Shown one piece after another: positions 31,713 through 32,235 of a DNA stretch of 45,111 nt (positions within the stretch are counted from its first letter, which is position 1; each line of letters starts with the position of its first letter). Origin of the DNA: Bacteroidales bacterium (GTDB taxonomy: Bacteria; Bacteroidota; Bacteroidia; Bacteroidales; UBA932). The stretch covers positions 1 through 45,111 of the forward strand of contig JAFYUS010000050.1 of the NCBI GenBank assembly GCA_017549505.1, read 5' to 3'. The notes under the pieces are model-generated. The model had not been told where the DNA came from. It did not search any database and worked only from the letters and a program-made list of their open reading frames with translations. A program made the translations under genes and the position numbers.

Positions 31713-31850
31713 GGTGTTTTCTATATAGGAGCTTTATACTATGGGGTGGCGAAATTTAAATAGGTGCTGGCTTATTTGCCAGAGGCGGTGCTTTTGAAAG
31801 GGTATTGCAATCAAACAAAAGGGATTTGAAATAGCTCCAATACATACAAA

Positions 31851-31882
31851 AATCCCTCATAATCGTTTGATTATGAGGGATT
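31851..31882 (-). terminator. Rho-independent terminator of tRNA-Leu
   Basis: AATCCCTCATAATC (31851-31864) pairs perfectly with 31869-31882 around GTTT. On the minus strand the stem is followed by TTTTTG. It begins 5 nt after the tRNA-Leu 3' end. Confidence 0.85.
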
Positions 31883-31886
31883 GATG

Positions 31887-32235
31887 TGCCTCGGACGGGA
31901 ATCGAACCCGTACGGCCATTGCTGGCCACGGGATTTTCTTGCTACTCTTGCTTTTACACAAGCCGGCTTCATCCGTAATGCTAAGCCGTTGTAGTCTGGA
32001 CTATTTCTTGACCATGCGCTTACGCGTTTAGGCCCTCCCTGTATAGTCTCTACGCCATTTATCGACAAGATTGTCGAACTTAGTGAGCCATCACCAAAGC
32101 CTGCATTTCTGCAAGCGAGGCTTCTGTTTGTTAGGGGAGTTCTACTCTCAAAGTTTCCTTTGAGGCACTCTTGTACGGTAAGTATGAAACTTACCCTTCA
32201 AAGTCCCGCGTGTCTACCTATTCCACCACCAAGGC
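31887..32235 (-). tRNA. tRNA-Leu(UAA), interrupted by a group I intron
   Basis: Exon 1 is 32235-32201 and exon 2 is 31937-31887; joined they give an 86-nt class II tRNA. The acceptor stem is GCCTTGG/CCGAGGC with discriminator A and no encoded CCA. The anticodon stem is CGGGA/TCCCG with loop CTTAAAA, hence anticodon TAA. The T arm is ACGGGTTCGATTCCCGT. The 263-nt interruption lies between U34 and A35. A TATCTTTG box precedes the gene and a terminator follows it. Confidence 0.93.
31938..32200 (-). ncRNA. Group I intron in tRNA-Leu(UAA)
   Basis: 263 nt with no open reading frame of its own. It ends in G (the omega-G of group I introns) just before the AAAA of exon 2, and exon 1 ends in U, giving the usual U at the 5' splice site. 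Core elements are visible on the minus strand: P7 5' strand in GAGACTATACAGGGAGGGCC, P8 around ACGCGTAAGCGCATGGTC, and AAGAAATAGTCCAGAC carrying the P7 3' strand. Predicted self-splicing. The insertion point is the one used in cyanobacterial and plastid tRNA-Leu(UAA). Confidence 0.88.

Follow-up and report, generated by a model that had tools for sequence, protein, structure and literature searches.

The window, by which we mean the whole 45,111-nt stretch of Bacteroidales DNA analyzed here, carries on its minus strand a tRNA-Leu(UAA) gene that is split after U34 by an insert of 263 nt (Table 1). The insert begins with TGAAGGG and ends with AGCAAG, and the two exons that flank it, when joined, give an RNA of 86 nt. 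The fold of this RNA is a cloverleaf with a long variable arm, and its anticodon is UAA. The insertion point is set at U34/A35 because a genome of the same genus, G031, carries the exact empty site; its exons are 98% identical to those of the window and are joined as ...GGGACTT followed directly by AAAATCCC.... With default settings, ARAGORN missed the gene, and with introns allowed it proposed a tRNA-Ser(UGA). This assignment was rejected as a slip of the boundary to positions 37/38, caused by the TGA with which the intron starts, since the empty allele fixes the boundary at 34/35. The initial annotation had described a complete tRNA-Leu(UAA) in a Bacteroidales host, interrupted after U34 by 263 nt that end in G, at the insertion point of the cyanobacterial tRNA-Leu(UAA) intron; each of these statements is borne out, the last by the same gene and the same U34/A35 site.

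Table 1. Features of the split tRNA-Leu(UAA) gene and its predicted intron structure (positions in the window)
Feature	Position	Strand	Basis
tRNA-Leu(UAA) gene with intron, whole	31887..32235	-	cloverleaf from exons; empty allele in G031
5' exon, ends ...GGGACUU (U34)	32201..32235	-	sequence and intronless allele L031
Group I intron, 263 nt, terminal G	31938..32200	-	R1 match at 31998-32142; covariation; empty-allele boundary
P1-loop apical hairpin; place of the HNH gene in ORF-bearing relatives	32177..32195	-	folds
Internal guide sequence GAGU, pairs with exon ACUU (P1)	32167..32170	-	18/18 folds; GAGTGC in 23 introns
P2 hairpin, GAAA loop	32147..32164	-	both-side changes at 6/7 pairs
P3 5' strand	32135..32139	-	both-side changes at 5/5 pairs, 100% paired
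P5 and extension	32093..32121	-	distal 7/7 pairs change on both sides; 1 of 3 basal pairs unpaired by the standard rule in 15/19 rows
P6a hairpin (predicted)	32062..32077	-	4 inner pairs, all with both-side changes, 87% paired
P7 5' strand GACUA (guanosine-binding helix)	32044..32048	-	invariant in 21/21 rows
P3 3' strand	32035..32039	-	kind-A alignment
P8	32010..32034	-	kind-A alignment
P7 3' strand UAGUC	31999..32003	-	invariant in 21/21 rows
P9 domain: invariant outer stem and two covarying hairpins	31942..31994	-	kind-A alignment
3' exon, begins AAAAUCCC..., to discriminator A73, no encoded CCA	31887..31937	-	sequence
Terminator-like inverted repeat directly behind the tRNA	31845..31886	-	palindrome, aligned; putative function

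The genome to which the window belongs is assembled in 69 contigs (2.1 Mb, 78% complete), and neither a DNA search of this assembly nor the tRNAs found in it yielded a second tRNA-Leu(UAA). The remaining tRNA-Leu genes found have the anticodons UAG, CAG, and GAG, and the codons UUA and UUG are in use, together accounting for 25 of the 2940 codons in eight ORFs of the window; the decoding of UUA and UUG therefore probably depends on the split gene, as judged from this incomplete assembly.

Taking the host genus as Cryptobacteroides, a genus of gut and rumen, we searched 400 of its genomes, which are incomplete metagenome assemblies, and found both the intron-plus and the intron-minus alleles for which a search of related genomes had been suggested. 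An intronless tRNA-Leu(UAA) is observed in 181 of the 400 genomes (79 of 150 among those of high quality). Two kinds of intron occupy the gene in others. The kind found in the window, with its subkinds, is referred to as kind A and is present in 26 genomes, the window's own included (22 at E<1e-30 plus the diverged G127, G202, G163, and G265; other weak rows are cross-hits and are not counted). A second kind, kind B, is present in about 125 genomes, counted as match rows at E<1e-30 in a list that extends to about E 1e-20; among them, G199 may hold only a relic. The rest showed neither allele type by these searches. Six assemblies (G046, G121, G192, G255, G261, and G280; contamination 1-5%) seem to contain the gene in two versions, with and without the intron, which would reflect either contamination or true second copies, and three more (G036, G199, and G263) contain an intronless gene plus an intron fragment. 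A pattern search of three kind-A genomes that are 94-99% complete (G038, G051, and G178) found no intronless copy.

In several relatives, some intron-bearing and some intronless, the tRNA gene lies within about 2-7 kb of the adenosylhomocysteinase (AHCY) gene, which suggests a single chromosomal locus for the alleles. A host tree built from AHCY comprises 28 of the 43 genomes tried, the other 15 having no AHCY match. In this tree, kinds A and B follow host clades, the six intronless genomes are scattered such that six changes are needed, and the nearest row to the window is the intronless G007 (98/94). Because the intron kind follows host clades, as seen with this one host gene, old inheritance combined with loss could explain much of the distribution.

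Some loci in the genus carry duplicated or decayed remains of the gene. In G036 (contig 6, 28552-28631; L266:8538-8632), a decayed relic consisting of part of the core and the first 26 bases of exon 2 lies at a distance of ~7 kb from an intact tRNA-Leu(UAA) that has no intron, and a similar pair is seen on contig 7 of G199. The arrangement in G036 suggests that an intron-bearing copy was replaced by an intronless one. An integrative element in the tRNA-Leu of G036 was also considered and rejected, as no integrase-like ORF was recognized by eye among the 19 listed and the relic looks like a decayed second copy. In G280 (contig 56; L272, 1251-1298), 48 bases of exon 2 are repeated directly behind the intron-bearing tRNA-Leu(UAA).

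The insert of the window is, as judged from its sequence and predicted fold, a group I intron. The kind-A cores were aligned for 21 of 23 distinct introns, the near-copies L212 and L223 being left out. In this alignment, 34 of 55 pairs change on both sides, compared with a mean of 17.8 +/- 2.2 in shuffled alignments, none of which reached 34 in 500 trials, and with at most 11 when the partner strand was slid. Similarly, 95.5% of the cells are paired versus 84.4% after shuffling. The number of further pair types is a less telling measure (59 versus 54.2; 25 of 500 shuffles reach 59). Compensatory changes keep P2, P3, distal P5, P6a, P8, and the P9 hairpins across all 21 cores, including those of the diverged subkinds; every pair of P3 varies with zero broken cells, the pairs of P8 are kept with changes, and P7 is invariant. 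The GAGTGC stretch that contains the guide is likewise invariant in the alignment, by construction, because all rows were cut to begin there; it is present in all 23 distinct kind-A introns examined. In the 5' ends of ORF-less kind-A introns that were folded, the guide pairs with the exon and places a U.G pair at the splice site, and most of the 18 P1 helices are topped by an apical hairpin whose letters vary while its stem stays. The last intron base reads as G in the introns inspected.

The P4-P6 domain is the weakest part of the kind-A model. Two clear pairs are found in P4, one of which covaries (A-U/G-C), P6 proper lies outside the pair count, and the non-standard basal pair of P5 reads as A.C. 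A full P4 is present in kind B and in the wider relatives.

Scoring with covariance models, a check proposed in the initial annotation, gave a divided result. The Rfam model RF00028 did not score the window at its gathering cut-off or at E<=1, and it also left unmatched two loci of the window's kind (L206 and L228) and the phage introns L291 and L276. The same library matches the kind-B locus L040 at 55.9 bits (cut-off 50) and a cyanobacterial intron at 91.3 bits; the miss is therefore read as divergence of kind A, and since RF00028 provides a library score and not a defining biochemical feature, the group I assignment rests on structure. A second model, R1, was built from the P3-P7 cores of 24 nearer introns (10 of kind B, six cyanobacterial, and eight from other phyla or domains), with no kind-A row in the training set. 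R1 does find the core in the window, at 38.7 bits (E 1.1e-5 in 385 kb searched), and this is the only R1 match reported in the 2.1-Mb genome (E 6e-5). Across 247 Bacteroidales genomes, R1 matched in two, only one of them, G663, a member of another family outside the genus; these genome searches used stricter filters, by which weak matches may be lost. By eye, the G663 intron resembles the subkind of G163 and G265. The P7/P8 core that the annotation had named is thus upheld by the R1 match, the covariation of P3 and P8, and the invariant P7.

The intron of the window contains neither an HNH motif nor an endonuclease frame. The claim that this intron has no homing endonuclease frame thus stands for the window, but it does not extend to its relatives. 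When 92 distinct introns were read by a motif rule, 18 contained a full HNH ORF, six a remnant or broken one, three another insert, and 65 none. The full ORFs, 14 in kind B and four in kind A, span about 160-206 codons and occupy the P1 loop, after the 5' splice site and before the guide; the kind-B frame continues into the ribozyme core. The encoded proteins match PF01844/PF13392, and the phage family phrog_10822 matches both bacterial HNH proteins over nearly their whole length (E 4e-47 and 4e-45). A PDB search with the kind-A protein returned nothing at E<=0.1. Four of 66 pairs among 12 kind-B genes have dS below 1.5, with dN/dS of 0.055, 0.079, 0.086, and 0.209, and 56 pairs are saturated; the HNH genes show signs of purifying selection. 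Full HNH genes, remnants, ORF-less introns, and empty sites, the stages of what we infer to be a homing cycle, are all displayed in a single genus.

Further observations concern the P1 loop. In L037, L097, and L162, the place of the HNH gene is taken by a non-HNH insert of ~170 bases with a repeated TTGTCAACGTGGCAAA-like motif. TAnnTTTG-like letters precede the HNH ATG in several P1 loops; TAnnTTTG is a -7 motif of Bacteroidota, which would make these letters a candidate internal promoter of the HNH gene.

Relatives of the HNH proteins are also found in phages. A scan of IMG/VR returned 80 viral loci with HNH relatives of 38-60% identity, of which 25 contain an R1 core at E<1e-4. The core follows the HNH gene in most of the 25; in L322, L325, and L353, it precedes the HNH gene, which is located behind the tRNA, and the near-identical loci of the L312 group seem to have the HNH gene inside the core rather than in P1. 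For 21 of the 80 loci, several of them near-identical, the ARAGORN call is a tRNA-Leu(UAA) with an interrupted anticodon loop; further 'taa' calls in L282 and L305 have implausible anticodon positions and are not counted. The intron lies between CUU and AAAAU in 19 of the 20 viral loci inspected, L337 being different. Extra tRNA genes are near by in 13 of 17 viral loci scanned, and a terminase-like match occurs in eight of 20 viral records, one of them the 244,784-bp record of L291 (E 8e-39). The terminase match is supportive only, because the same family also matches 11 of 14 bacterial and archaeal control genomes. Among deposited phage records with HNH relatives, one of the five examined contains an intron, a 595-kb uncultured phage. 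In Rhodococcus phage Francesca (L389, 1341-1899), the HNH relative is free-standing right behind an intact tRNA-Leu(UAA), and Synechococcus phage S-CRM01 (L387, 1852-2441) has another HNH relative; in these two phages, the HNH relatives lie directly behind or overlap tRNA-Leu genes at which no R1 core was detected. The Francesca arrangement would fit an HNH family that was aimed at the tRNA-Leu gene before it joined an intron. In addition to the HNH gene in P1, the phage introns L274, L276, and L278 seem to have another coding insert, in P8, and the tRNA cluster of L291 that holds the kind-A intron also contains a permuted tmRNA (1384-1639; RF04321, 69.3 bits).

The phylogenetic placement of the introns and of the HNH proteins was assessed in three trees, each built from selected rows. 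A tree of 47 introns (50 rows were tried; L087, L145, and L275 were left out, as their P7 3' motif could not be located) places the window's kind with phage L291 (100/99), the G163/G265 subkind with phages L351, L283, and L300 (90/80), and, with moderate support, kind B with phages L274, L276, L278, and L287 (84/96); a long-branch warning applies to this tree. The cyanobacterial introns stand apart in it (100/100). In a tree of 59 cores, for which the bootstrap was incompletely settled, the 23 cyanobacterial introns form one clade (99/96), and neither Bacteroidales kind falls inside it. The tree of HNH proteins (91 of 97, six viral ones of <110 aa to the first stop being left out) contains two separate bacterial clades among the phage proteins, with SH-aLRT as the sole support (kind B 100, kind A 99), and kind A adjoins phages L282, L289, L290, L292, and L330 (SH-aLRT 96).

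We consider it probable that the window holds an endonuclease-free group I intron at U34/A35 that belongs to a mobile family common to Cryptobacteroides and tRNA-bearing phages. Given its structure, the intron is most likely a self-splicing group I ribozyme: the guide GAGU would pair with the exon ACUU to form P1, an external G bound in P7 would attack after U34, and the exons would be joined at the terminal G to restore an intact UAA anticodon. Family members whose P1 loop encodes an HNH enzyme presumably cleave tRNA-Leu(UAA) genes that lack the intron, the repair of which would copy it in. The copy in the window may have lost this gene or may never have had it, and it is probably kept by descent, because splicing would keep the tRNA functional. 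The best candidate vehicles for the movement of the intron between hosts are phages with a tRNA-Leu(UAA) gene. More tentatively, it is possible that the tRNA genes of large phages are both the reservoir from which homing group I introns invade the tRNA genes of bacteria and the vehicle that brings them there; a phage-borne endonuclease would then cut the intronless tRNA-Leu(UAA) of a host or of a rival phage, and repair would plant the intron.

Three other explanations bear on this reading. The most plausible of them, which we nonetheless regard as unlikely, holds that the intron is an old vertical resident of the genus with many losses and no recent homing, and that phages took it from their hosts. 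The AHCY tree, in which kind A is restricted to a single host clade and kind B to different ones, and the preponderance of introns read without an endonuclease (65/92) are in keeping with such a history. However, the low dN/dS of full HNH genes speaks for ongoing mobility, the bacterial HNH genes fall into two distinct clades amid those of phages (by SH-aLRT), and a similar intron occurs in another Bacteroidales family (G663). A lateral transfer of the cyanobacterial/plastid tRNA-Leu(UAA) intron into Bacteroidales would account for the shared gene, the identical insertion point, and the core motifs that fall under one pattern, but it is very improbable, as both trees keep the cyanobacterial introns in a clade of their own with kinds A and B outside, grouping with phage introns, and the P7-P9 letters of kind B (AGACUAGAC..AUAGUCCAGACCACAAAC) are those common to proteobacterial and phage introns rather than cyanobacterial ones. 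Descent from within the cyanobacterial clade is accordingly disfavoured. The initial annotation had left open whether the intron was a lateral acquisition or an independent insertion; this choice is narrowed, with the separate cyanobacterial clade speaking against one donor and the grouping with the phage L291 intron speaking for exchange. Because the cyanobacterial introns stand apart and the Bacteroidales kinds group with phage tRNA-Leu(UAA) introns, exchange with phages is likelier than acquisition from cyanobacteria.

Equally improbable is a dead or pseudogene tRNA with a decaying insert, UUA and UUG being read by a second gene that was not assembled. The assembly is indeed only 78% complete, and a decaying relic does exist beside an intact intronless copy in the relative G036. 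Yet the exons of the window keep full pairing, the core helices are kept with compensatory changes, the nearly complete kind-A genomes described above show no intronless copy by pattern, and UUA and UUG remain in use.

The tRNA-Leu(UAA) intron serves in textbooks as an example of the antiquity of introns, from cyanobacteria to plastids. Similar to the Bacteroidales introns, the cyanobacterial intron interrupts this gene at U34/A35, has the P1-P9 order, terminal G, and core motifs; unlike it, the Bacteroidales introns fall in a separate clade, some carry an HNH gene in P1, and kind A has a diverged P4-P6 that RF00028 misses. A tRNA-fMet intron endonuclease of cyanobacteria was reportedly described by Bonocora and Shub in 2001, and this enzyme is reported to be of the PD-(D/E)XK class. 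It shares with the relatives of the window's intron that it is intron-encoded and aimed at a tRNA anticodon region, but the tRNA is another one and the Bacteroidales relatives' enzyme is HNH. Proteobacterial tRNA introns are known from Azoarcus and Agrobacterium, and a gammaproteobacterial tRNA-Leu(UAA) intron is said to have been found by Vepritskiy et al. in 2002. Proteobacterial introns, including the gammaproteobacterial L125, L143, and L151, have a similar core and P7-P9 letters near those of kind B, and differ in lying in other tRNA genes or positions, as called by ARAGORN, some of the calls being doubtful. The bacterial HNH proteins match the phrog_10822 phage endonucleases, some of which, as in Francesca, are free beside a tRNA-Leu gene.

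I-PfoP3I is a phage HNH endonuclease inside a group I intron of a DNA polymerase gene (PMC3428280), whereas the phage relatives described here interrupt tRNA-Leu(UAA). A table in a 2014 review lists tRNA group I introns in cyanobacteria and in alpha- and beta-proteobacteria (PMC4033280), and according to the tRNAscan-SE 2.0 paper, group I introns are the reason why fMet or Ile2 genes are missing in 36 genomes (PMC8450103). Excerpts of four further papers (PMC11835236, PMC7886860, PMC11878797, and PMC5733544) mention no Bacteroidota or phage tRNA intron. Searches of the open-access literature gave no report of tRNA-Leu introns in Bacteroidota, of tRNA introns in phages, or of HNH genes in tRNA introns. 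A group I intron at U34/A35 of tRNA-Leu(UAA) is known; its occurrence in Bacteroidales, the link to phages, and the HNH-bearing relatives are, as far as these searches show, new.

In this gut and rumen genus, extra intron kinds occupy the same nucleotide, and full HNH genes, remnants, ORF-less copies, and empty sites coexist, which makes the homing cycle directly testable in bacteria. A route into bacterial chromosomes is suggested by phages whose tRNA-Leu(UAA) genes contain the same kind of intron and endonuclease. If phage tRNA genes are indeed the reservoir, the classic cyanobacterial/plastid intron position would be a hot spot that is hit repeatedly through phages. Because default ARAGORN and RF00028 both miss the window's kind, split tRNAs of the kind-A type may be recorded as absent.

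A core pattern shared by kind B and the cyanobacterial introns is found in at least 119 stretches of named genomes. Among the 80 matches listed are those of Bacteroidales and Cyanobacteria, mostly called as tRNA-Leu(UAA) split in the anticodon loop, and others from Omnitrophota, Pacearchaeota/Nanoarchaeota, Kiritimatiellia, Abditibacterium, and Gammaproteobacteria, mostly in other tRNAs by ARAGORN calls, some of which are doubtful. In L094, L145, and L148, from Omnitrophota and Nanoarchaeota, tRNA-Asn introns have HNH-like coding letters before the core, at the position of the P1 loop; because of this likeness, the HNH-in-P1 arrangement may not be limited to Bacteroidales.
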